In this document: positions 3,294 to 16,070 of the stretch, one piece after another | Layout of the letters: every line of letters starts with the position of its first letter | Position numbering within the stretch: position 1 is the stretch's first letter | Source of the DNA: Bacteroidales bacterium | GTDB taxonomy: Bacteria > Bacteroidota > Bacteroidia > Bacteroidales > UBA7960 | Direction of reading: 5' to 3' | Assembly (NCBI GenBank): GCA_003554665.1 | Contig: PWGY01000141.1 | Location: 1-21,116 of the forward strand | Length of the DNA: 21,116 nucleotides | The notes under the pieces: model-generated | The model's input: the letters and a program-made list of their open reading frames with translations, nothing else | Told to the model about the DNA's origin: nothing | Databases searched by the model: none | Program-made: the position numbers and the translations under genes

Positions 3294-4373
3294 ATGAACA
3301 AAAAATTCAAAATTGTGATCAACCTTGCCATCCTGGTTCTGTTGATCGGGATAATTGCCTATCCGAAAATCAGCCCCTTATTTTCTTCCGGTACCTCGGG
3401 GGGCGGAGATGCTTCTTTCCAGCCGCAACAGCGACGGGCCCTGAAGGTTAGCGGATACGTCCTTGAACCGATGCCCATTCGTGATGAGGTCAGAACAACC
3501 GGTAATTTGTTGCCTGATGAGGAGGTGGATCTTGCATTTGAGACAAGCGGAAAGGTTGTGGGCATCTATTTCCAGGAGGGAAGTTTTGTGGAAGAAGGTG
3601 ACCTGCTGGCCAAAATGAATGACCGCCACCTGCAGGCCCAGCTTCAGAAACTTGAAGCCCAGCACCGGTTGCTCGTGGAACGGGAGTTCCGGCAGCGCAG
3701 CCTGCTTGAGCGGGACGCCATTAGTCAGGAGTCTTACGACCAGGTAGTTACCGAGCTGGAGTCGCTGGATGCGGACATTGAACTGATGGAGGCGCGGATA
3801 GCCGAAACCGAAGTACGTGCGCCATTTGACGGCATTGTGGGCCTTCGTTACCTGAGCGAGGGTAGTTACGCCTCCCCGAGTACTCAACTGGCACGGCTTA
3901 TTAAGATAGAGCCACTGAAAATTGAGTTTTCTGTTCCTGAACGTTATGCCGGGGAGATCACTCCCGGGTTTCCGGTGACCTTTAGCATTGACGGTGTTCT
4001 CAATGCCATGGAAGCGGAAGTGTATGCGGTAAACCCCATGGTGGATGAGCGTACCCGTACCATCAGGGTAAGGGCACTGTACGACAACGTTGACGGGCAG
4101 CTTAATCCGGGGCGTTTTGCCAGTATTTCGCTGACCCTGGCCGAAAGCAATGAAGCGATTACAGTTCCGGCCGAGGCACTGATCCCTGAAATGGAAGGAG
4201 ACAGGGTATTTCTATACCGCGACGGGGTAGCCGAGGCCGTGTACGTGCAAACCGGGATCCGTGCCGAGGACCGGGTACAGATCACCGACGGACTTGCTTT
4301 CGGAGATACGCTTCTTACTACTGGTGTGTTGCAGCTTCGTCAGGGACTTCCTGTGGAGCTTGATAATTTTTAA
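3294..4373 (+). CDS. RND efflux periplasmic adaptor (HlyD/AcrA-type membrane fusion protein)
   Basis: This 359-residue protein bridges the inner-membrane pump and the outer-membrane channel in the periplasm. Residues 8-24 form a hydrophobic N-terminal anchor with no lipobox cysteine, so it is probably held by a membrane helix and not by a lipid. A barrel-sandwich/lipoyl half-motif follows (residues about 85-110, with GKVVGIYFQEGSFVEEGDLL), then a coiled-coil hairpin (about 112-165). The second lipoyl half (AETEVRAPFDGIVG) and beta-barrel segments (IEFSVPERYAGE onward) come next, and the C-terminal part is a membrane-proximal domain. The ATG at 3294 is chosen because it precedes the anchor directly; an upstream in-frame start is not seen. 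It is the first gene of a three-gene efflux operon, 11 bp before the pump gene. Substrate specificity cannot be read from the sequence. Confidence 0.93.
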   Translation: MNKKFKIVINLAILVLLIGIIAYPKISPLFSSGTSGGGDASFQPQQRRALKVSGYVLEPMPIRDEVRTTGNLLPDEEVDLAFETSGKVVGIYFQEGSFVEEGDLLAKMNDRHLQAQLQKLEAQHRLLVEREFRQRSLLERDAISQESYDQVVTELESLDADIELMEARIAETEVRAPFDGIVGLRYLSEGSYASPSTQLARLIKIEPLKIEFSVPERYAGEITPGFPVTFSIDGVLNAMEAEVYAVNPMVDERTRTIRVRALYDNVDGQLNPGRFASISLTLAESNEAITVPAEALIPEMEGDRVFLYRDGVAEAVYVQTGIRAEDRVQITDGLAFGDTLLTTGVLQLRQGLPVELDNF

Positions 4374-4384
4374 GGAATCATATA

Positions 4385-7300
4385 ATGAGTCTTTCTTCAA
4401 TAAGTATACAACGACCGGTGCTGGCCACCGTGTTTGTCATTGTGATCGTCCTTTTCGGGTTGATTGGGATGACCTATCTGGGAGTCAGGGAGTTTCCCAG
4501 CGTGGATCCGCCCATCATATCTGTAAGCACCTCTTATCCTGGTGCAAATTCTGATGTGATCGAAACCCAGATCACTGAACCTCTGGAGCAAGCCATCAAT
4601 GCCGTACCCGGTATACGCTCCCTGACCAGTACCAGCCGGCAGGGCAACAGCCGGATCACGGTAGAATTTGAACTCAGTGTGGATATGGAAACTGCGGCCA
4701 ATGATGTACGTGACAAGGTGGCACAGGCCCAGCGGAGATTGCCCAGGGATGTGGATCCTCCCATTGTGTCCAAAGCCGATGCCGACTCCAGCCCGATCAT
4801 GTTTGTGACCGTGGAAAGTGAGACCCGTTCGCTTCTTGAACTTTCAGAAATCGCTGAACTTACTCTGGCGGAGCAGCTACAGACCATATCAGGGGTAAGT
4901 GGCATTCATATTTGGGGTCAGAAACGATATGCCATGCGCCTGTGGCTTGATCCGGCGAAACTTGCCGGTTACGGCCTGACGCCCATGGATGTAAGAAACA
5001 CCCTGCAGCGTGAGAATGTGGAACTCCCCTCGGGTCGGATTGAAGGCAACACAGTGGAGCTGACCATCCGTACCCTTGGTCTGATGTCAACTCCGGAAGA
5101 ATTCAACAACATGATCATCAGCGATGCCGATGGTCAGATCGTGAGGTTCAGGGATGTGGGCCGTGCCGAACTGGGTCCGGAAGACCTGCGCGGGATTGTC
5201 CGGCGCGATGGGGTTCCGCTTGTGGGCAATGCCATTGTGCCCCAGCCCGGTTCCAATCATATTGATATTGTGGATGAGGTCTATCGTCGCCTGGCTATGA
5301 TCGAGCGGGATATTCCGGATGATGTGACCATTAACATCGGTTTTGACAATACGGATTACATCCGCTCATCCATCCGGGAGGTCCGCAATACCATTTTTAT
5401 TGCCTTTACCCTGGTGGTGATCATCATATTCCTCTTTTTACGCGATTGGCGAACCACAATTATTCCTGTGCTGGTGATCCCTGTTTCACTGATCGGTTCC
5501 TTCTTTATCATGTACCTGGCAGGTTTTTCCATCAATGTGCTTACCCTGCTTGCCATTGTACTGGCCATCGGGCTGGTGGTGGATGATGCCATTGTGATGA
5601 TGGAGAATATATATGTAAAAATTGAAAAAGGGATGACTCCCGTCCAGGCAGGGCTTGCCGGGGCGAAAGAGATTTTCTTTGCCATCATTGCCACCACCAT
5701 TACCCTGGTGGCCGTGTTTTTCCCCATTGTTTTCCTGGAAGGGATGACCGGCCGTTTGTTCAGGGAGTTTTCCATTGTAATTGCAGGGGCTGTGGCTATT
5801 TCATCCTTTGTGGCGCTGAGTTTTACCCCCATGCTTTCGACCAAGATCCTGAGGCAACGCAAGACCAGGGGGCGGTTTTATCAGCAGACAGAAGGGTTCT
5901 TCCGGTCATTGAATCTGATGTACACCAATAGCCTGGAGCGTTTTTTACAGCGGCGCTGGATGGCACTGGTTATTTTGGTTGCGGCAGCCGGAATGGTGAT
6001 TATTTTGTTCAATGCCATTCCAGGTGAGATGGCCCCGCTGGAAGACCGGTCTCAGCTGACCATCAATGCCAGGGCGCCTGAAGGAACCACCTACGAGTTC
6101 ATTCGTGACTATATTGATGAAATTGCCGACCTGGCCGAAGAGCAGGTGCCTGAAAGGGAATCCATTACTTCCATGGTGTTCGGGGGGTGGTCCAATGTGC
6201 GGGTGCTCCTGAAAGACCCCGCTGATCGCGAGGCTTCCCAGCAGGAGATTGCTGATCGCCTGTCCGTGGCGCTTCAGGATAAGACCCGTGCCATGGCCTT
6301 TGTGAACCAGCAGTCCACATTCGGAGGGAGGCGCTCAGGCCGTCCTGTTCAGTATGTGATTCAGGCCCAGGATATTGAAAGGATCAGGGAGGTTTTGCCT
6401 GAGTTTATGGACCAGGCAAATGAGAGTAGCATTCTGCAGGCACCTGATGTGAACCTCCGTTTCAACCTGCCTGAGATGCAAATTGAAATTGACCGCGACA
6501 AGGCCAATGCCCTGGGGGTTTCCACTCAGAATATCGGTCAGACGCTTCAGCTGGCACTCAGCGGACAGCGTTTCGGGTATTTCTTTATGCACGGAAAGCA
6601 ATACCAGGTGCTGGGTGAGTTAAGCAGGGAAGATCGCAACACCCCGCTGGATCTGAAATCCTTGTTCGTGCGCAACAACAACGGAGACATGATTCAGCTG
6701 GATAACCTCGTGACTTTGAGGGAGCGCACGGCTCCACCCCAGTTGTACCGGTACAACCGTTTTGTGTCTGCCACGGTATCGGCCAACCTTGCACCGGGTT
6801 ACACCATCAGTGAAGGCATTGAGGAGATGGACCGGATTGCCGACGGTGTACTGGATGACACATTCAGGACGGCCCTTGACGGCGACTCCAGGGATTACCA
6901 GGAAAGTGCCTCCAGTCTGATCTTTGCTTTTGTGCTGGCCATCGTGCTGATCTTCCTGGTGCTTTCGGCCCAGTTTGAAAGTTTCAGGGATCCCCTGATT
7001 GTGATGATGACCGTGCCGCTGGCCATGACGGGAGCCATGCTTTTTCTGTGGTACTTTGATATCACCATGAATATTTTCAGCCAAATCGGGATTATCATGC
7101 TCATCGGGCTGGTATCCAAAAACGGGATTTTGATGGTGGAGTTTGCCAACCAACGAAAACTTGCTGGTATGGCCAAGCTGGAAGCCATCAAGTATGCTGC
7201 GGCTGCCAGGTTCCGTCCCATCCTGATGACCAGTTTATCAACCATTTTGGGCGTGATGCCCCTGACACTCGGTTTGGGTGAGGGAGCCGAGGGCCGGATC

Positions 7301-7441
7301 TCCATGGGTGTGGCGGTGATCGGCGGGCTGATCTTTTCCACCTTTCTGACCCTGTTTGTGGTGCCGGCAGTTTATTCTTACATTTCTTCTGAAAGAAAAA
7401 GTACCGGGGCCGCAGAAGAAGGTCTTCCCGAAACAACTTAA
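4385..7441 (+). CDS. RND efflux pump inner-membrane permease (HAE1/AcrB family)
   Basis: This 1018-residue protein is a proton-driven trimeric exporter of the AcrB type, of normal length for the family (about 1000-1050 aa). The N-terminal helix is followed by the periplasmic porter region with the family's REFPSVDPPIISVSTSYPGA-like segment. The TM4 proton-relay aspartates are D400 and D401 (GLVVDDAIVMMENIY), and the TM10 lysine is K912 (GLVSKNGILMVEFAN). Twelve membrane segments are expected from the two hydrophobic blocks around residues 335-530 and 840-1005. The layout (adaptor, pump, channel, gaps of 11 and 19 bp) indicates one transcript. The motifs favour the hydrophobic/amphiphilic drug class over heavy-metal CusA pumps, but the substrate is unknown. 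No local TetR- or MarR-type regulator gene is present. Confidence 0.96.
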   Translation: MSLSSISIQRPVLATVFVIVIVLFGLIGMTYLGVREFPSVDPPIISVSTSYPGANSDVIETQITEPLEQAINAVPGIRSLTSTSRQGNSRITVEFELSVDMETAANDVRDKVAQAQRRLPRDVDPPIVSKADADSSPIMFVTVESETRSLLELSEIAELTLAEQLQTISGVSGIHIWGQKRYAMRLWLDPAKLAGYGLTPMDVRNTLQRENVELPSGRIEGNTVELTIRTLGLMSTPEEFNNMIISDADGQIVRFRDVGRAELGPEDLRGIVRRDGVPLVGNAIVPQPGSNHIDIVDEVYRRLAMIERDIPDDVTINIGFDNTDYIRSSIREVRNTIFIAFTLVVIIIFLFLRDWRTTIIPVLVIPVSLIGSFFIMYLAGFSINVLTLLAIVLAIGLVVDDAIVMMENIYVKIEKGMTPVQAGLAGAKEIFFAIIATTITLVAVFFPIVFLEGMTGRLFREFSIVIAGAVAISSFVALSFTPMLSTKILRQRKTRGRFYQQTEGFFRSLNLMYTNSLERFLQRRWMALVILVAAAGMVIILFNAIPGEMAPLEDRSQLTINARAPEGTTYEFIRDYIDEIADLAEEQVPERESITSMVFGGWSNVRVLLKDPADREASQQEIADRLSVALQDKTRAMAFVNQQSTFGGRRSGRPVQYVIQAQDIERIREVLPEFMDQANESSILQAPDVNLRFNLPEMQIEIDRDKANALGVSTQNIGQTLQLALSGQRFGYFFMHGKQYQVLGELSREDRNTPLDLKSLFVRNNNGDMIQLDNLVTLRERTAPPQLYRYNRFVSATVSANLAPGYTISEGIEEMDRIADGVLDDTFRTALDGDSRDYQESASSLIFAFVLAIVLIFLVLSAQFESFRDPLIVMMTVPLAMTGAMLFLWYFDITMNIFSQIGIIMLIGLVSKNGILMVEFANQRKLAGMAKLEAIKYAAAARFRPILMTSLSTILGVMPLTLGLGEGAEGRISMGVAVIGGLIFSTFLTLFVVPAVYSYISSERKSTGAAEEGLPETT

Positions 7442-7460
7442 TATTTCTGGAACAACAATA

Positions 7461-8795
7461 ATGCGGACAAAAATGTATATGAAAAAACTGATATTCATTG
7501 CGGGCCTTATGATGCTTTCGCTTTCCTGGAGTACTGCACAGGAAGTAAAAACATTGCAGGAGGTTCTGTCGTTTGGTCTGGAAAACAATTACTCCATACG
7601 GATGGCCAGGAAAGGGCAGGAAATATCAGATAACAACTTCAGTCGTGGCAATGCGGGGTTTTTCCCTTCACTTGATTTACGATCTCAGTATTCCGGGACC
7701 CGCAACAACACTGACAGGGAAAACATTGACGGCACCACTTCTTCCCTGCGCGGGGTACACAATACCGTAGCCAGTGTGAACCTGAATCTGGGCTGGACCA
7801 TATTTGACGGGTTTCGTGTGCAGACCTCCTATGACCGCCTTGGAGTTTTACAGGAAATGGGGGAGCTGAACACCCAGCAGGCCATTGAAAATTTGATTGC
7901 CAACCTGAGTGCGGAGTACTTCAACCTGATCCGGCAAAAACAGCAACTGGAGAACCTGAAGTTTGCCGTGGAGTTGTCGCGCGAACGGATGCGTATTGAT
8001 GAGGAACGGTACCTGCTGGGATCCGGTTCAAGACTTCAGTTGCTTCAGGCAGAGGTTTTTCTGAATGCCGACAGTGCCCGTATGACCAGGCAGGAAGAAG
8101 TTGTCAGGGCTTCACGCATTCACCTGAATGAACTGATGGCCAGGGAAGATCTCAGGGCTGCCATTCAGCCATCCGACACCATTATTCCGCTTGAAGACAT
8201 TCTGATCCTTGAGAGCCTGAGGCAATCAGCCGAAGAAAACAACACCAGTCTGCGTGCTGCCGCCAAAAACACAACGCTCTCTGAATATGACCAGAAAATG
8301 ATTGCCGCTGGAACGTATCCCTATGTGAGTTTTAGTTCGGGTTATGGGTTGTCCCGCAATACCTACCAAACCGGGAGCTACACCGATCAGCAGACTGCAG
8401 GAATGAATTATGGTATTACCCTGGGTATGAATCTGTTTGATGGATTCAATCAGCGAAGGCGCATGAGCAATGCCCGGATTGAAGTTGAAAACAGCCGGGT
8501 TCGTGAGGAAGATACCCGAAACACTTTAATGGCGGATCTGATCACCAATTATGAAGAGTACCTGAACTTTTTCCGCCTTATTGAGATGGAGTCTCAAAAC
8601 CTGGATGTGGCCTATGAAACCCTGAATATTGCCCTGGAACGATACCGGCTGGGAGAGCTTTCAGGCATCGAGCTCAGGGAGGTGCAGAAAAACCTGCTTG
8701 AAGCGGAAGAACGCCTGCTGACGGTTCAGTACCAGGCCAAACTGGCCGAAATATCCCTAAAATATATCGCCGGGAGAATCACCGATTACCTGTAA
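7461..8795 (+). CDS. TolC-family outer-membrane efflux channel
   Basis: This is the third gene of the efflux operon, encoding the outer-membrane exit duct. The open frame extends upstream to 7356, inside the pump gene. The ATG at 7461 is preferred because it falls 19 bp after the pump stop codon and directly precedes a signal peptide; the ATG at 7479 (MKKLIFIAGL) is an equally plausible start. The 444-residue product (from 7461) has a cleavable signal ending near STAQ. Two homologous halves of long amphipathic helices and short beta segments follow, each half holding a TolC-typical stretch (GWTIFDGFRVQ in the first, GMNLFDGFNQRRR in the second). It ends with the long C-terminal helix typical of OEP proteins. 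Convergent with the hybrid kinase gene, 85 bp away. Confidence 0.93.
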   Translation: MRTKMYMKKLIFIAGLMMLSLSWSTAQEVKTLQEVLSFGLENNYSIRMARKGQEISDNNFSRGNAGFFPSLDLRSQYSGTRNNTDRENIDGTTSSLRGVHNTVASVNLNLGWTIFDGFRVQTSYDRLGVLQEMGELNTQQAIENLIANLSAEYFNLIRQKQQLENLKFAVELSRERMRIDEERYLLGSGSRLQLLQAEVFLNADSARMTRQEEVVRASRIHLNELMAREDLRAAIQPSDTIIPLEDILILESLRQSAEENNTSLRAAAKNTTLSEYDQKMIAAGTYPYVSFSSGYGLSRNTYQTGSYTDQQTAGMNYGITLGMNLFDGFNQRRRMSNARIEVENSRVREEDTRNTLMADLITNYEEYLNFFRLIEMESQNLDVAYETLNIALERYRLGELSGIELREVQKNLLEAEERLLTVQYQAKLAEISLKYIAGRITDYL

Positions 8796-8880: not shown

Positions 8881-11800
8881 TTAAGCGGGTGTGGAGAGGT
8901 GCTGATGTATCAGTTGAATAAAGTGGTCAATCGATATGGGCTTTGTGATATAATTATCACAGCCGGCATCAATGGCTTTTCTTTTATCTACTTCCCCGGA
9001 ATAGGCGGTCATGGCAATTACCGGCAGCTCAGGATATTGCTGCTTGATGATTTTTGTGGCCTCCAGCCCGTTCATTACCGGCATTTTGATATCCATCAGC
9101 ACCAGGTCAATATCCGTATGATCGTGGGCGATTTCTGTTGCCTCTTTTCCGTTCCATGCATGCAATACCTCTATGTCAAACCTGCGAAGGATGGTTTTGG
9201 TCAGCTGAAAATTGTGCTTTTCATCCTCGGCAACCAGTATCCGGGCCTTTATGGGTGCTTGTTGGTTCTGGTTGCCTTTTTTTGCAGGAGAGCCCTGATG
9301 GAAGGTTTTTCCGGGGATGGTAAAATAAAAAATACTTCCTTTTCCCGGTTCGGACTCAAGCCAGATCTCACCACCGAGCAGGCTGACAAAGGAACTGGAA
9401 ATGGCGAGGCCCAGCCCGACTCCTGACTTTTCTCCGGAAGGCATGGGCTCCACCTGCTGGAAACGATCCCAGATGACAGACTGATTTTCCGGACGGATGC
9501 CGATGCCTGTATCGGCAACATAAAACAGCAATTTTCCTTTTTCTTTCCGGCAGCCAAACTCAACATGCCCCTCTTCCGTATATTTTATGGCGTTGTGCAC
9601 CAGGTTGGTCAACACCTGTGCAACTTTTGTCTTATCGGTGATGACCCATGCCTGATCGGCTTGCAACATATTGTTCAGGCGGAACTTCATGGGTTTATTC
9701 CTGGCAAACTGCTCCAACTGATTGTAAACGTTTTTCATTAACTCCCCGATGTCCGTTTCCTTCTCATGGGCTTCAATCAGTCCTGATTCGATGGTCGACA
9801 TGCTGATGATGTCGTCGATTATGGAAAGCAACTGATTGCCACTTTGGCATATGGTATTGCTTAGCTCCCTTACCCGTTCCGGGCTGTGGCTGCCTTCACC
9901 CAGTATTTCAGAAAACCCCATAATGGAATTCAGGGGAGTTCGTATTTCATGTGAAAGATTATTGAGAAAGGCTGTTTTCAGTTTGTCGCTTTCCTCAGCC
10001 CTGGCCCTGGCTGCTTTCAACTCCTCAATGCTTTTGGCCCTTTGTATGCCCATGCTGATCTGGCTGGAGGCATATTCAAGCAAATGGCAGTGGGTTGTGT
10101 CCAGTGCGTCCGGGTCGTTGTAATTCTGAATCACGACGGCCCCGAATATTTCTCCGCCGGCAAAAAGAGGAACCCCCAGCCAGACTTTACTCATTGTTCC
10201 AATCAGTTTAACGTCTCCCTGACTGATCAGTTTTTCAATATCCGGCTGATGAAGCAATCTGGACTTCCCGCTGGTAATAACCAGCCCGGTCAGTGACCCT
10301 TTTGCCGGGAATTGCATGATCTGTGCTTTCTCGGTCTGCTCAAAGGGAACGGACAGCATTCCGGTTGTTTTATCATACAGGGCAACGTAGAAATTTGTGG
10401 TATCCATCAGTTTGCCAAGTGATTCCCTGATGGAGGCAAGCAACTCCTCTGTTTTTTCTGTGGTAATGGTGGCATTGGCAATCTGATAAAGCACACGTCG
10501 GGTGGTTTCGTGTAATTTTCGGTCACTCACATCCCGGACAATGGCCAGCAGGAGATTGCTTTCATTGACAAATAAAGGACTCAGGCTGATCTCTGCGTCA
10601 AATGGTTTTCCTTTACCATCCAGATGTACCCATTCAAAGTGCTGTTTTTCCCCCATAGAGGCCAAACGGATAAGTTCTTCGGCCTTATCCCGGGAGGGGG
10701 TGCCGTCCGGCTGTTGTGGCGGGGAAAGATGCCAGGGGTTACGCCCCAGGAGGTCTTCTTTCCGGTACCGGAACATCCTTTCTGCATGGGGGTTGCAGTC
10801 CAGAATTCCTGCTTCTGACATCAGCAGGATGCCATCACTGGCATACTCAAACAAGGCCCTGTACTTCTTTTCGCTTTCTTCCAGAGCCTGCTTTTGTTCA
10901 TACTTTTCGGTTACGTCAGAGAAGACCATGACCACCCCGGTTATGTTCTCTTCTGTATCTTTGATGGGTGCCGCAGAATCGGCAATCTGGTGTTCGGATC
11001 CATCTCTGGCGATCAGCACGGTATCATTGGCCATCCCGACAATCCTCCCCCTTTCCAAAACAAGCCGGGCAGGGTTTTCTGCTTCTTGTCTTGTTTTGGC
11101 GCTGAAAATACGAAACACTTCCGACAGTGGTTTGTGCATGGCCTCCCTCAGGAGCCATCCGGTCATTTTTTCTGCAATCGGGTTCATGTCCGTTACCCGT
11201 CCATCCAGGTCGGTGGTGATGACACCGTCACCGATTGATTGAAGTGTAACACGGAGGTTTTCACGATGTCGCCGGATGTCGGCGATTGCTTTCCTGCGTT
11301 GAAAAAAGAGTCCTGTCAGTCTGGCGGCATTTTGAAGGAGCCTTTCTTCCTCCGGTAAAAATTCATGGTGGTGAGTGTCATAACAAACCTGAATAAACCC
11401 GATTTTTTGCCCGTTAACTTCAATGTCGGTATGTAGTAAATCACTGCCGGTGCACTTATTTGGTTTTTTCGGGGAGCTATACACATCGGCCACGTTGATC
11501 ATAACATGAGCGGAAGCCGGGTGTTGCATGGCTTCTGAAATATGCTTTTCCAACTGCATGCAAAAGGTTTCGCCAGGAAGCTCTTTGTGCATACTTTCAT
11601 TGATGGAGGTCAGGCAGCGTAATTCTTTGATCCGTTCTTTAAGCTGACCCTCCAGTTTTTTTCTTTGATCTTCAAGCTCTATACTGTACAAGGCAAATCC
11701 AATGTCGTCAGCCACTTCACGGAAAATGGACTGTGCTTCATCCAGACAGGCATAGGCTTCCGGTGCAGCAGCTGTAAGCACCCCGTATGCCTTGCCTTTG

Positions 11801-12240
11801 TAGCTCAAAACCATGCTCAGACCTGCGTTTTCGGATGCTTTCTCTTTGCCCGGGCAATCAGTGCATGTGCCAGAGTGGTGTTTAAACACAACCAGTTCGC
11901 GGGTTTTCAGGGCTTCTGTCATGCATGCTGGCTGTTTGCCGTGCCGGAAGTACTCCTGTAAGGCTGTGAACTGGTTACCCATTTTGCTTGATGCGGTCAA
12001 CGAAACTTTTCCGGACTCATCTGTCAGGGCGATCCATGCATACTGGTAACCCATGCTTTCAGTCAGGTTGTCACAGGCCTTGAATATCAACTTTTCAGGG
12101 TTTTTCTCCCTGGCAATTAGCTGATTGACATTTCGCACTCCTTTGAGTACATTTTTCAGGTGGAACTCTTTCCTGAGTGCATTGCGGAGTCCCCGGATTT
12201 TTTTTGATTGTTGTTCCCCGGAAGAAAATTTACGGGCCAT
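8881..12240 (-). CDS. Soluble hybrid sensor histidine kinase, GAF-GAF-PAS-PAS-GAF-HisKA-HATPase-REC
   Basis: This 1119-residue cytoplasmic protein has no membrane segment. Approximate order: GAF-like domain (30-190) with a C126-x2-C129-P motif; second GAF-like domain (205-318); PAS (325-450); PAS (455-578); GAF (585-735); a short coiled linker; dimerisation/phosphoacceptor domain with H764 in NLSHEIRTPLN; ATPase domain with N883 (VHNAIKYT), DTGIG near 910 and the GLGLA box near 942; and a C-terminal receiver with acidic residues E1005-D1006, phosphoacceptor D1050, T1078 and K1100. It should autophosphorylate and pass phosphate to its own receiver, or receive it from a partner. It is the last gene of the four-gene sensory operon, 14 bp after the smaller kinase. 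The first GAF with CxxCP resembles, from memory, a known variant in multi-domain kinases. No HPt or DNA-binding output is encoded here, so the relay must continue elsewhere or act by protein contact. Confidence 0.93.
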   Translation of the reverse strand: MARKFSSGEQQSKKIRGLRNALRKEFHLKNVLKGVRNVNQLIAREKNPEKLIFKACDNLTESMGYQYAWIALTDESGKVSLTASSKMGNQFTALQEYFRHGKQPACMTEALKTRELVVFKHHSGTCTDCPGKEKASENAGLSMVLSYKGKAYGVLTAAAPEAYACLDEAQSIFREVADDIGFALYSIELEDQRKKLEGQLKERIKELRCLTSINESMHKELPGETFCMQLEKHISEAMQHPASAHVMINVADVYSSPKKPNKCTGSDLLHTDIEVNGQKIGFIQVCYDTHHHEFLPEEERLLQNAARLTGLFFQRRKAIADIRRHRENLRVTLQSIGDGVITTDLDGRVTDMNPIAEKMTGWLLREAMHKPLSEVFRIFSAKTRQEAENPARLVLERGRIVGMANDTVLIARDGSEHQIADSAAPIKDTEENITGVVMVFSDVTEKYEQKQALEESEKKYRALFEYASDGILLMSEAGILDCNPHAERMFRYRKEDLLGRNPWHLSPPQQPDGTPSRDKAEELIRLASMGEKQHFEWVHLDGKGKPFDAEISLSPLFVNESNLLLAIVRDVSDRKLHETTRRVLYQIANATITTEKTEELLASIRESLGKLMDTTNFYVALYDKTTGMLSVPFEQTEKAQIMQFPAKGSLTGLVITSGKSRLLHQPDIEKLISQGDVKLIGTMSKVWLGVPLFAGGEIFGAVVIQNYNDPDALDTTHCHLLEYASSQISMGIQRAKSIEELKAARARAEESDKLKTAFLNNLSHEIRTPLNSIMGFSEILGEGSHSPERVRELSNTICQSGNQLLSIIDDIISMSTIESGLIEAHEKETDIGELMKNVYNQLEQFARNKPMKFRLNNMLQADQAWVITDKTKVAQVLTNLVHNAIKYTEEGHVEFGCRKEKGKLLFYVADTGIGIRPENQSVIWDRFQQVEPMPSGEKSGVGLGLAISSSFVSLLGGEIWLESEPGKGSIFYFTIPGKTFHQGSPAKKGNQNQQAPIKARILVAEDEKHNFQLTKTILRRFDIEVLHAWNGKEATEIAHDHTDIDLVLMDIKMPVMNGLEATKIIKQQYPELPVIAMTAYSGEVDKRKAIDAGCDNYITKPISIDHFIQLIHQHLSTPA

Positions 12241-12254
12241 ACTATGTCGTTGTA

Positions 12255-13445
12255 TTAATGTTCAGTGTTTTGCTGGACTGGTAAAGTGAATGAGAAACAG
12301 GAACCTTCTTTTTCTTTGCTTTCCACAGTGAGCTTTCCCCCATGTTCTTCAATGATTTTCCGGCTTATGGCCAGCCCAAGTCCGGTGCTCGTTTCACCGG
12401 CTGTAGGCCGTGTGCTGGATTTATGAAAGGGGTTAAATATGTAAGGGATTTCACTTTCTTTGATTCCCAGGCCATGGTCAATCACCGAGGTTCTGGCGTA
12501 TTCACCGTCAAGGATGGTTCTGACAATCACTGTGCTGTTCTTGTGCGAATATTTGATTGCATTGCTGATCAGATTGTTCAGCACCTGTTCGGTTTTGTTT
12601 CTGTCGAAATGGAAATACCAGGGGCCTTCAGGGATCTCCAGTTTGATCTCAATATTTTTGTATTTGGCCACCATCCGGTTGAACTCCACGCTTTTCTCAA
12701 GCAGTGCCACATAATCACCAGTTTCTTTTTTCAGTGCGACGTCGCCTGACTCAATTTTCGAGATGTCGAGCAATTCCGTCATCAGACGAAGAGAAAACTG
12801 CAACCGCTCTTCAATGTTTTTGAGGAACTGTTGTTGTTGGGATACTGGAAAGCTGCCGGCATCATTAATCAATATGTCTGCATAAGAAATGGCGGCTGCA
12901 ATGGGGTTTCGAAGATCATGAGCTGCCATGTTCATGAACTTGTTTTTTTCTTCGTGAAGGATGGCCAGTTGTTCATTGGCATTTGTCAGGTCATCAAGGG
13001 TTTGTTCCAGCAGGATCTTTTCCTTGGTCAGCTGTCGTTGCAGGTTGTTGGTTTCACGGTTCAGCTCGGCCAGTCGCTGATTTTGTGTTACAATACGATT
13101 CAGATCCACTTCGCCGGTAACCAGCATTTGTCCCTCCTTGCGGAACACGCGTGCATGGATGGTCGTATTGATTTGTGATTCACTGCCAATGGTGAGCATC
13201 CCTTCATACACCGGTCTGCCAGTGCCAGGATTATCAGGGATTTCAAGGAGCTGGTTAAAGGATGGGTTAACCAGGGTTTCTGCGGCTGTCCCATGCATCA
13301 GCAGGCGGAAGGCGTTGTTCCCGAAAAGCAGTGACCGGTCCTCAATGGAAAAAACAGCGATGCAAAGGGCGTTGCTCACCAGGGCTGCGTTTTCGATCTC
13401 CTGCAGCCAGCAGGAAAGGGGTTGCATCTTTTCTGATTTCTTCAT
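12255..13445 (-). CDS. Soluble PAS-type sensor histidine kinase
   Basis: The ATG at 13445 (MKKSEKMQPL) gives a 396-residue kinase that starts 22 bp after the stop of the upstream gene. The frame is open to an ATG at 13577, but that start would run through the preceding coding sequence and give an unlikely Cys/Arg-rich N-terminus. Residues about 20-115 look like a PAS fold (IAVFSIEDRSLLFGNNAF). Residues 117-168 are a heptad-rich coiled coil. The phosphoacceptor is H176 in NMAAHDLRNPIA, and the ATPase domain has N295 (NLISNAIKYS), D323-x-G325-x-G327, and GLGLAI near 355. It has no transmembrane helix and no receiver, so it can only donate phosphate, plausibly to the receiver of the hybrid kinase encoded 14 bp downstream. 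Signal unknown; genetic linkage suggests the cobalamin protein. Confidence 0.9.
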   Translation of the reverse strand: MKKSEKMQPLSCWLQEIENAALVSNALCIAVFSIEDRSLLFGNNAFRLLMHGTAAETLVNPSFNQLLEIPDNPGTGRPVYEGMLTIGSESQINTTIHARVFRKEGQMLVTGEVDLNRIVTQNQRLAELNRETNNLQRQLTKEKILLEQTLDDLTNANEQLAILHEEKNKFMNMAAHDLRNPIAAAISYADILINDAGSFPVSQQQQFLKNIEERLQFSLRLMTELLDISKIESGDVALKKETGDYVALLEKSVEFNRMVAKYKNIEIKLEIPEGPWYFHFDRNKTEQVLNNLISNAIKYSHKNSTVIVRTILDGEYARTSVIDHGLGIKESEIPYIFNPFHKSSTRPTAGETSTGLGLAISRKIIEEHGGKLTVESKEKEGSCFSFTLPVQQNTEH

Positions 13446-13467
13446 TGATCCAAAGGCTGATTTTGGG

Positions 13468-13902
13468 TTATTGATGCGACAAATTTTCAAACAACGGGAT
13501 GTTGACCTGCATCCACTCATAAAGCGGAAGCACCTGCCTGTAAGCCTCACCTGGTAATTCTTCCCGGATGATATCAATCCACATGTTCAGCTGGGCTGCC
13601 CAGTAAGTGGAGGCGAAGCCCCTGCTCCTGTATGCCCTGAAGACCCATAAAATGGTTTCCACCAAAACCTCAGGGTTGTGGTTTTCCAGGATGGAGGCAA
13701 TGAAACGGGCGTGGTTGGCATGATTGTCACACATCATATCGCGGCCGGACTTCCCGATCAATTCGTCAATATCAGGCCGTGAAAGCATTTTTTCGTTAAC
13801 CCGGGCAATCATGCGCTGCGAAGCTGTGGTGTAAGCCTCAGCGGTGGTGGTGTCGAAGGGTCCCAGCTGGCCGGCACTGGCAATAAGGTCTTTTTTATCC
13901 AT
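13468..13902 (-). CDS. Unrecognised 144-residue helical protein coupled to the cobalamin-binding protein
   Basis: Its ATG overlaps the stop of the upstream cobalamin protein by one base (TAATG), so translation is probably coupled and equal amounts of the two products are likely. The protein appears all-helical, soluble and without signal peptide. Notable residues are C58, H61 and H64 (spaced C-x2-H-x2-H), H75, and four tryptophans (W86, W101, W108, W130). The central part, with D59-N60, H64-x2-F67-I and later W86 and R94-G95-F96, reminds me of a helical domain found next to B12-binding domains in larger regulators. The RSRGF stretch also resembles RsbRD-type N-terminal sensor domains. Both likenesses are from memory and unverified. 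A signalling adaptor between the cobalamin protein and the kinases is an inference from gene order only. Confidence 0.8.
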   Translation of the reverse strand: MDKKDLIASAGQLGPFDTTTAEAYTTASQRMIARVNEKMLSRPDIDELIGKSGRDMMCDNHANHARFIASILENHNPEVLVETILWVFRAYRSRGFASTYWAAQLNMWIDIIREELPGEAYRQVLPLYEWMQVNIPLFENLSHQ

Positions 13903-14555
13903 TATGATTGGTGTTGGTCAATAAAAGCTTCCAGTTCTGTCAGGTTTGCGATATACCGGGTATTCGGGTATCTTTCAGCCACCTCTTTCCCCCCGTAACG
14001 GAATGCCTGCCCCCCAATGATCACCGGGAGCTCAGACTTTTGCCGGATCAGCCGGAGGGTTTTTGCAAGCAGTGGGATGTGTGAGTATATGCTGACCGAA
14101 AGGGCCACCATGTCCGGGTTTTGCTTGTCAATATACCGGATCATTTCATTTGCCGGGACATTGGAGCCCGGGAAATAAGTGTCCCACCCCTTCATCTCAA
14201 AGAGGTCGGCCACCATTTTTACCCCCACCTGGTGAAATTCTGTCTCCACACAACCCAGCACCACTTTTCTGGCTTGCCGCTGGCGTGACACAATGTCGTA
14301 AAAAAGCTCATTCATGATGCTTTCGGTCACAGAGGTGGCAATATGTTCCTCTGCCACGGTAACCTGGTTGCTTTCCCAAAGTTCACCCACACGATACAAA
14401 GCCACCTTAATGGTATGCTCGTAAATGTCCTGAATAGGTATTCCTTTCGCTGCCAAATCCCTGATAAGATTTGAAGCGGCCACCCTGTTGCCTTGCAGTA
14501 TCAACTCCAGGTAGCGGTTTTCATCAGAATTGGTCCTGTTGCTGAATGCTTCCAT
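13902..14555 (-). CDS. Stand-alone cobalamin-binding sensor protein (CarH/LitR-type B12 domain, no DNA-binding domain)
   Basis: The 217-residue protein has a four-helix cap domain (about 12-90) followed by a B12-binding Rossmann-like domain (about 96-215). The cap carries W60-x9-E70-H71, the pattern that in CarH-type photoreceptors packs against the upper face of adenosylcobalamin. The Rossmann part carries E106-x-H108-x2-G111, the variant of DxHxxG in which His is the lower cobalt ligand. It also has S153-V-S155 in the SxL position and G181-G182. These features fit the photoreceptor/regulator branch better than methionine synthase or methyltransferase corrinoid proteins, which have DVHDIGKN. 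Unlike CarH it lacks the MerR helix-turn-helix. The residue after W60 is E61, where Thermus CarH, as I recall, has the His that ligates cobalt after illumination. It heads the sensory operon, 33 bp after cysS, which may be co-transcribed. Cobalamin binding is very likely; light sensing is plausible but unproven. Confidence 0.88.
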   Translation of the reverse strand: MEAFSNRTNSDENRYLELILQGNRVAASNLIRDLAAKGIPIQDIYEHTIKVALYRVGELWESNQVTVAEEHIATSVTESIMNELFYDIVSRQRQARKVVLGCVETEFHQVGVKMVADLFEMKGWDTYFPGSNVPANEMIRYIDKQNPDMVALSVSIYSHIPLLAKTLRLIRQKSELPVIIGGQAFRYGGKEVAERYPNTRYIANLTELEAFIDQHQS

Positions 14556-14588: not shown

Positions 14589-16070
14589 TTAACGGTTTAT
14601 CTCCCAGGTGCTACCCTCTTTGCTGTCTTTTATGATAATATTCATTTGCTGAAGGGCATCCCTGAGCCGGTCCGCTGTTTCCCAGTCTTTGTTTTCACGG
14701 GCCTTTTTGCGTAACTCAAGAATGAGTTCCATGAGTTCTTCCAGCAGTTCATCCTGTTGCCCATGGCCACCATGTTCGGCATTTAATCCGAAAATATCCT
14801 CCAGGAAAAGGTGGAATGTTTTTCGAAGGGCTTCCAGATCTTTACCGCACAGGGTCTCCCTTTGGTCACGAACAGCGTTGATTGTTTTTACGGCATCAAA
14901 AAGATGGGCGATGGCTACCGGGCTGTTGAAATCATCCTGCATGGCAGTGTGACATTTCTTAGCCAGATCCGGGATCTTTGTGCTGGAAGTTTCTGAAGGC
15001 TGCAGTTGGTTCAGGGTTTCAGATGCCTGCAGTAGTCTTTGGAGGCCTTTGTCAGCCGCCTGCAGGGCCTCATTGCTGAAGTCAAGGGTGCTGCGGTAAT
15101 GTGCCTGCAGAATAAAGAAGCGTATGGTCAGTGGGCTGTAGGCCTTTGTCAGCTCATCATGCTTGCCGTCGAAAAACTCCCTGAGGGTGATGAAGTTCCC
15201 CAGGGATTTGCCCATTTTCTGCCCGTTGATGGTGATCATGTTGTTGTGCATCCAGTAACGAACCGTGTCTTTGCCGAAGGTGGCATTTGACTGGGCAATT
15301 TCGCACTCATGGTGGGGAAACAGCAGATCCATGCCACCACCGTGGATGTCGAATTCCTTTCCCAGGTATTTGGCGCTCATGGCAGAACACTCCAGGTGCC
15401 AGCCCGGGAAGCCTTCTCCCCATGGCGAAGGCCAGCGCATCAGATGAGTGGGAGATGCTTTTTTCCACAGGGCAAAGTCGGCCGGATGGCGTTTTTCTTC
15501 CTGGCCTTCCAGCTCCCGGTTGCCTGCCATCATTTCCTCCACGTTCCTCCCGCTGAGCTTGCCGTAATGATGCTGCTCATTGTACTTTTTGACGTCAAAG
15601 TATACCGAACCATCCACTTCATAAGCATACCCCGCATCCAAAATGGCCTTCACCATTTCAATCTGTTCAATGATGTGGCCTGAGGCCCTCGGCTCGATGC
15701 TGGGTTTCTGTACATTCAGCCGGGCCATGTCTTCATGGTAGCGATCTGAGTAATACTGGACTATTTCCATGGGCTCCAGTTGCTCCAGTCGTGCCTTTTT
15801 GGTGATCTTGTCTTCCCCGCTGTCAGCATCACCCTCCAGGTGGCCCACATCGGTAATGTTCCTTACATAGCGGACTTTGTATCCAAGATGCTTCAGGTAA
15901 CGGAATACAAGGTCGAAAGTGATGGCCGGACGTGCATGACCAAGGTGGGCATCTCCGTAAACCGTGGGGCCACAAACATAAAGCCCGGTGAATGGAGGGG
16001 TTGCCGGATCAAATTTCTCCAGTCGACGTGTTAAAGTATTGTAGATATGTAAATTATTTTTTGTGATCAT
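14589..16070 (-). CDS. cysS: Cysteinyl-tRNA synthetase
   Basis: This 493-residue class I aminoacyl-tRNA synthetase attaches cysteine to tRNA-Cys in the cytoplasm. The HIGH signature is present as H-L-G-H at 42-45 and the KMSKS signature as K-M-G-K-S at 285-289. Probable zinc ligands in the active site are C33 (YVCGPTVYG), C228 (GWHLECSAM), H253 and E257 ([10 protein letters not shown]), as expected for CysRS. The remainder is the anticodon stem-contact and binding region, including a short charged helix ([13 protein letters not shown]) typical of the C-terminal DALR region. Length fits the family (about 460-500 aa). It is preceded by a perfect -7 element (16112-16119) and followed after 33 bp by the sensory operon on the same strand. 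Confidence 0.97.

Follow-up and report, generated by a model that had tools for sequence, protein, structure and literature searches.

The window analysed here is a 21,116-nucleotide stretch of DNA from a Bacteroidales bacterium (contig PWGY01000141.1, assembly GCA_003554665.1), and its subject is an operon of four co-directional genes on the minus strand, in which genes for a CarH-type cobalamin (B12)-binding protein and a small helical protein precede two histidine kinase genes. A sequence-only reading had placed these genes correctly, with a 1-base-pair (bp) overlap followed by gaps of 22 and 14 bp, and had proposed that they form one unit linking a B12 sensor to two-component proteins. The genes, with lengths in amino acids (aa), are as follows.

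13902..14555, minus strand: CarH-type cobalamin-binding protein, 217 aa, with the Pfam PF02607 helix bundle and PF02310 Rossmann domain
13468..13902, minus strand: predicted globin, 144 aa, hereafter GLB, photoglobin/phycobiliprotein-like and with no conserved proximal His
12255..13445, minus strand: PAS-type histidine kinase, 396 aa, with HisKA and HATPase_c (Pfam)
13110..13367, minus strand: PAS-like input domain of this short kinase, residues 27–112, from the secondary-structure order of an AlphaFold2 model; missed by Pfam
8881..12240, minus strand: hybrid kinase, 1119 aa, GAF/PAS/HisKA/HATPase/REC (Pfam), a local addition to the operon

The start of the short kinase was set at the ATG at 13445 in preference to the TTG at 13577 of the mechanical open reading frame list, because this start reproduces the 22-bp gap and yields a protein of 396 aa, as long as the relatives in loci L001–L003. 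Hydropathy windows above 1.6 are absent from the three small proteins and number one in the hybrid kinase.

Conservation of the gene order and the two kinases

A scan of genome contigs returned 138 relatives, of which the best 80 were kept, which biases the set towards close relatives; the 78 of these loci with a called globin reading frame were used for counts of gene runs and gene order. Judged by tblastn match distances in the 80 loci, the B12 gene lies directly upstream of the globin gene, within 150 bp, in 68, directly downstream in two (L051 and L078), and further up on the same strand in five (L047, L050, L061, L075 and L079). The other five gave no tblastn match at E 1e-10; L001 begins at a contig end, where the 21 C-terminal residues of the B12 protein are still encoded, L073 has a divergent B12 neighbour, and L040, L057 and L080 show no trace of the gene.

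Of the 78 co-directional runs that contain the globin gene, 69 include a kinase, 70 a B12 gene and 64 the two together; of the nine loci with no kinase in the run, some are cut by contig ends. B12 protein, globin and kinase are consecutive and in that order in 59 loci. These are mostly from Bacteroidota but include representatives of Balneolales (L004), Oligosphaera (L044) and Desulfobulbaceae (L052), and the three-gene order thus spans Bacteroidota, Balneolales, Lentisphaerota and Desulfobacterota. The sequence-only reading was to be given up if its genes proved not to be neighbours in related genomes; for the first three genes, the order in these 59 loci is the opposite outcome. Across the 78 loci, histidine kinase matches make up 120 of the 426 genes within three genes of the globin and one of the 162 genes at least six genes away, and the proximity of kinase and globin is therefore more than chance.

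The fourth gene does not share this conservation. Clear orthologues of the hybrid kinase were found in L002 and L003 only, and in a sister Bacteroidales genome (L001, positions 1733–1990) it is a broken 85-aa remnant beside an intact globin and short kinase, which may reflect natural loss or an assembly error. On these alignments the hybrid kinase is a local addition outside the conserved core, and the proposed four-gene unit shrinks to three. A kinase of ∼400 aa with a REC domain follows within three genes in 12 loci, an arrangement that would suit a relay between kinases. Among ten chosen proteins scanned are response regulators with LuxR-type, two GGDEF and SpoIIE outputs, carried by the clusters of L047, L079 and L050, as expected if the sensor feeds two-component signalling.

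Both kinases carry HisKA with its phospho-acceptor His and HATPase_c with N and G1 boxes. In the short kinase the acceptor is H176, within HDLRNP; the G2 pattern that we tried gave no match, although an alignment of 43 short kinases shows G355 and G357 without exception. Its earlier description as a PAS kinase is in keeping with the PAS-like order of strands and helices at residues 27–112 of the AlphaFold2 model (predicted local distance difference test score, pLDDT, 80.9; predicted template modelling score 0.49), but not by Pfam, which finds no PAS domain in it. With such a predicted input domain, the short kinase would be the natural receiver of a signal from the sensor. The hybrid kinase is, as first described, a multi-GAF/PAS protein: the best Pfam stretches for these domains are residues 47–184, 328–443, 468–573 and 598–731, followed by H764, the N-box, G1 and G2 patterns and the REC aspartate D1050.

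Our literature search found no paper on a split B12–globin–kinase operon; we claim no priority, and Schneider 2022, reportedly a bioinformatic study that defined photoglobins, may cover related neighbourhoods.

The B12 protein and the predicted globin as a probable photocobilin-like pair

The B12 protein was rightly called CarH-type: both Pfam domains are there, as are the adenosyl-binding and cobalt-ligand motifs listed below. Pfam finds no domain in it beyond PF02607 and PF02310, so that the MerR-type DNA-binding domain is missing; its score with the CarH model NF052513 is 48.5 bits against a cut-off of 400. The view of a stand-alone sensor domain linked to two-component proteins agrees with this and with the wide adjacency of the first three genes. 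Its best PDB sequence matches are photocobilins (8j2w/8j2x, E 8e-22; 8j2y, 2e-18), with 8jbs (9e-19) between them and CarH itself (5c8a) at 3e-7.

14376..14378, minus strand: W60 of the W-x9-EH adenosyl-binding motif; Trp in 75/75 readable rows
14343..14348, minus strand: E70-H71 of W-x9-EH; kept in 75/75 readable rows
14232..14240, minus strand: E106-x-H108, lower axial cobalt ligand motif; Glu in 77/77 rows, His in 76/77

The alignment holds 77 rows, namely the window, 75 loci and Ilyobacter, and excludes the five loci in which no B12 gene was detected at E 1e-10; 75 rows are readable, the other two being cut before W60. W-x9-EH is invariant in these 75 and also in the 120 fused proteins listed by the search described below. 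In photocobilins the equivalents of E70-H71 make adenosine and dimer contacts (PMC10979010). The published light signature consists of GxxW, EH, GxxH and GxxxP (PMC11796333). Three of these four elements are present in the window's protein; GxxH reads TxxH, and Gly stands at that column in nine of 77 rows. The residue after W60 is Glu in 74 of 75 rows, that of the window included. CarH has a His right after this Trp, which forms its bis-His state, and by analogy a photocobilin-like light state is therefore the better guess for the operon protein. Illumination of SasPcob strips off the adenosyl group; the helix with the Glu-His pair moves, the dimer opens, and water or hydroxide, not a second His, takes the cobalt (PMC10979010).

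Neither Pfam nor NCBIfam places the 144-aa protein in a family, and its sequence matches nothing in the PDB significantly, so that the label of an unrecognised helical protein was accurate as to sequence family. It does not hold for structure: the AlphaFold2 model (pLDDT 96) is a globin close to allophycocyanin, smURFP and the photocobilin globin, with the globin-coupled sensor domains of DosC and Bordetella also among the best fold matches. We therefore describe it as a predicted globin of the phycobilin/photoglobin type.

13711..13725, minus strand: N60-H61-x-x-H64, signature of the GLB family; N60 in 200, H61 in 199 and H64 in 201 of 202 rows
13645..13647, minus strand: W86, at the column of SasPcob Trp296; 201/202 GLB rows and 5/5 photoglobins

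In an alignment of 202 rows (81 split, 121 fused), the N60 column is Asn in all 81 split and in 119 fused rows, and W86 is retained in 80 split and all 121 fused rows. At the W86 column, five photoglobin domains encoded on plasmids of Azospirillum, Skermanella and Streptomyces likewise have Trp, and at the N60 column they have Asp. In SasPcob, the corresponding Trp296 hydrogen-bonds the corrin ring and Asp270 holds the bilin; the latter is His in AbPcob, whose biliverdin binding is weak (PMC10979010). H61, H64, Y91, Y100, W108, Y128 and W130 are each at least 93% conserved in the GLB rows and are missing from the five photoglobins, save for His at column 64 in Azospirillum. Helix F has no conserved His: residues 77–93 hold His in 0–7 of 202 rows, except position 92 (53 rows), and position 94, just beyond the helix, is His in 78.

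When B12 protein and globin are joined, they align collinearly with 8j2y through its globin, at 73.5 bits versus 69.8 for the B12 part alone, and N60 falls on the AbPcob His and W86 on its Trp; the score with 8j2w shows no gain (81.1 to 80.2 bits). GLB and photoglobins agree in fold and alignment register, but four photoglobin domains score only −0.5 to −1.9 bits with the GLB profile. In a tree of 72 domains (36 of the 81 split rows, the window included, 31 of the 121 fused rows and the five photoglobins), the photoglobins stand apart from the 67 GLB rows (support 100/99). To judge by these alignments, GLB is a distinct family marked by NHxxH and lacking the bilin-anchoring Asp.

Natural fusions connect this globin to the B12 domain directly. 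The 373-aa chain of Ilyobacter polytropus consists of a GLB globin (90.5 bits) and then a CarH-type domain, and all 120 listed of its 747 homologues (E ≤ 1e-20) likewise have a GLB-family globin, at 68 to 125 bits, N-terminal to a CarH-type domain. These represent at least 120 protein clusters and include a near-identical copy of the query; as the query is itself a fusion, the search shows that fusions are widespread and not what fraction of globins is fused. A plasmid search with the B12 protein gave 25 records, and in all six that were examined the B12 domain is fused to an extra domain of globin size. Because GLB globins occur fused to CarH-type domains elsewhere, the first two operon genes can be modelled as a split, photocobilin-like sensor unit. 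In the tree the split form lies entirely on one side of a branch (100/100), and the fused rows are paraphyletic if photoglobins root the tree, on a root branch that is very long and with four long-branched rows. Domain order in the fusions is globin–B12, whereas gene order in the split form is B12–globin, so that a simple fission is not demonstrated.

In Ilyobacter (L083, positions 3554–5597) the fusion gene overlaps the next gene, which encodes GGDEF, and its output is therefore probably cyclic di-GMP.

Biliverdin supply, a proposed mechanism and its alternatives

Heme oxygenase was found in one of the 49 host genomes searched, that of a SAR324 bacterium (G036), which is also the only one with a HutW-type radical SAM protein above cut-off. 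Even there, the globin of locus L050 keeps Asn. This genome also holds loci L087 and L088, and its cluster carries the REC–SpoIIE regulator. In a one-phylum sample of 395 genomes, 42 were above the heme oxygenase cut-off and five had the globin, and none of these five was among the 45 with any heme oxygenase match. The rate in hosts (1/49 versus 42/395) is not significantly lower (Fisher p 0.07) and the genomes are unmatched for completeness or lifestyle, so that the comparison shows only that most hosts are without the usual source of biliverdin, and not that the globin drives its loss. The PduO-type adenosyltransferase PF01923 is present in 38 of the 49 host genomes, which favours the mechanism proposed below. 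Because the bilin-anchoring Asp is lost and heme oxygenase is mostly absent from hosts, GLB probably acts without biliverdin, either as a docking or transmission part or with another ligand.

We put at roughly 60% the probability that the adenosylcobalamin state, probably set by light, gates the kinase through a split B12–globin sensor that works without biliverdin. The computed gene order, predicted globin fold, natural fusions, motif conservation and rarity of heme oxygenase are consistent with this, and we infer the protein contacts, adenosylcobalamin binding, light response and sign of kinase control that it entails. The first two genes would provide a two-chain sensor built like a photocobilin, in which the CarH-type protein would bind adenosylcobalamin and the globin, by way of Trp86, would dock over the corrin ring's edge. 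Once the adenosyl group is lost, for which green or blue light is the most plausible trigger, the E70-H71 helix would shift and the B12 protein would dimerise differently, with the result that the B12–globin pair meets the kinase PAS domain in another way and phosphoryl flow of the soluble kinase is turned on or off. Where present, the clade-limited hybrid kinase might serve as a second kinase or as a receiver that passes the signal onward. Stand-alone photocobilins alter a partner cyclase by protein contact (PMC10979010), which offers a precedent.

The pair might instead be a metabolic sensor that reports the level or chemical state of adenosylcobalamin (adenosyl, methyl or aquo) to the kinase, light being irrelevant. 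We regard this as a serious though distinctly less probable alternative. It would suit the hosts among Bacteroidales, Desulfobulbaceae, Spirochaetota, Clostridium and Ilyobacter, several of which are anaerobes of dark habitats, as well as the widespread adenosyltransferase and the altered element, GxxH to TxxH, of the light signature; other hosts, such as Lutibacter, are aerobes of lit waters, the adenosyl-cradling Trp and the Glu-His of light-sensing CarH and photocobilins are invariant, and adenosylcobalamin bound to a fold like this should be photolabile no matter what it is used for. The probabilities of these readings overlap, because metabolic B12 and light signals could share one sensor.

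That the globin instead binds biliverdin or another bilin, taken from outside or made by an unrecognised enzyme, and so adds red-light sensitivity, we consider unlikely. Its phycobiliprotein-like predicted fold and the biliverdin binding of related globins (PMC10151467, PMC10979010) would allow it, as would the heme oxygenase and HutW-type protein of the SAR324 genome and the lack of significance in the rate comparison, but Asn replaces the anchoring Asp in 200 of 202 rows, that SAR324 globin included, and 48 of 49 genomes have no canonical biliverdin source.

That the 144-aa protein is instead a heme globin sensing O2 or NO, and the B12 protein a module apart from it, is less probable again: the fold matches to DosC and Bordetella domains and the two nearly invariant His residues of helix E speak for it, and the want of a conserved His in helix F against it. 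Gene order without function, the kinases adjoining by chance or operon drift, could draw on the unconserved hybrid kinase and the nine loci with no kinase in the run and is very improbable given the kinase enrichment near the globin and the order shared by four bacterial groups.

Beyond the gating mechanism itself, we offer one more speculative proposal, which we think rather doubtful: that NHxxH globins, frequent in bacteria that avoid oxygen, are sensor globins of a new kind. On this view they would have arisen from the photoglobin/phycobilin fold, abandoned biliverdin and come to hold another ligand in a pocket that invariant Asn, His, Tyr and Trp residues line; paired with adenosylcobalamin, they would make up a dual sensor independent of O2, with kinases, diguanylate cyclases or phosphatases under its control.

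Related systems and neighbouring genes

The operon pair resembles the photocobilins (SasPcob, 8j2w/8j2x; AbDPcob, 8j2y) in combining a CarH-type domain bearing W-x9-EH and E/DxH with a five-helix globin, in keeping the corrin-contact Trp and in the control, here proposed, of an enzyme partner, not DNA (PMC10979010). It differs in being two chains from two genes, in its histidine kinase partner and in its NHxxH globin, with Asn for the bilin Asp and heme oxygenase in one of 49 hosts. The CarH and LitR repressors share its B12-binding fold and light-sensing residues, but the operon protein has no MerR DNA-binding domain and a predicted two-component output. The contrast with these DNA-acting regulators that had been drawn from the sequence is sound as to the missing domain; action other than on DNA was already known, however, since photocobilins control an enzyme (PMC10979010). 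We conclude that the operon encodes a photocobilin relative that is divided into two chains, is coupled to a kinase and has an altered globin, and that its departure from DNA binding is not itself new.

As in the operon, a separate BBAG-2 globin gene lies beside a B12-binding gene (PMC10151467). As described there, genomes with BBAG-2-type globins have heme oxygenase and, in part, bilin reductase, and two of these globins bind biliverdin, whereas GLB occurs mostly without heme oxygenase and beside kinases; the comparison is one of descriptions. Globin-coupled sensors such as DosC and BpeGReg also feed a signalling output from a globin fold, and differ in having the helix-F His that is missing here. 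Pfam and NCBIfam yielded no model for the large GLB family, to which the analysis assigns a partner, a likely role and, by prediction, a fold. Control of the B12-photoreceptor kind would thereby reach beyond DNA binding and fusions to diguanylate cyclases, to the two-component kinases of several bacterial groups. The findings suggest a B12-based switch in many bacteria, and raise the question of how a bilin-type globin serves cells that have no heme oxygenase.

Fusions in Azospirillum and Skermanella (L081, positions 4566–5627; L086, 3581–4633) likewise place a photoglobin-like domain N-terminal to a CarH-type domain, and two annotated genes further downstream Azospirillum has a gene for a histidine kinase, recalling the kinase association here; the globin of these fusions, however, retains the bilin-site Asp and escapes the GLB profile. 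Both read C-V-E-D where the alignment suggests the C-x-R-D that is the phycobiliprotein motif (PMC10151467), and a covalent bilin link is therefore conceivable. Photocobilin-like genes of Streptomyces lie between PP2C phosphatase and STAS genes, as in stress-response switches (L082, positions 3974–5035; L084, 2926–4020), and near annotated gas vesicle genes (L085, 2968–4047), the latter setting hinting at light or B12 control of gas vesicle proteins.

Two neighbours of the operon were also noted.

14589..16070, minus strand: cysS, co-directional, 33 bp upstream of the B12 gene

Because cysS is co-directional and so close, the operon transcript may begin further upstream and be shared with it; its orthologue, 89–91% identical, is likewise upstream in L002 and L003. 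At 3294–8795 of the window, a convergent set of three genes, a putative RND efflux system, faces the operon, and orthologues 88–95% identical lie in the same arrangement beside the operon in L001.

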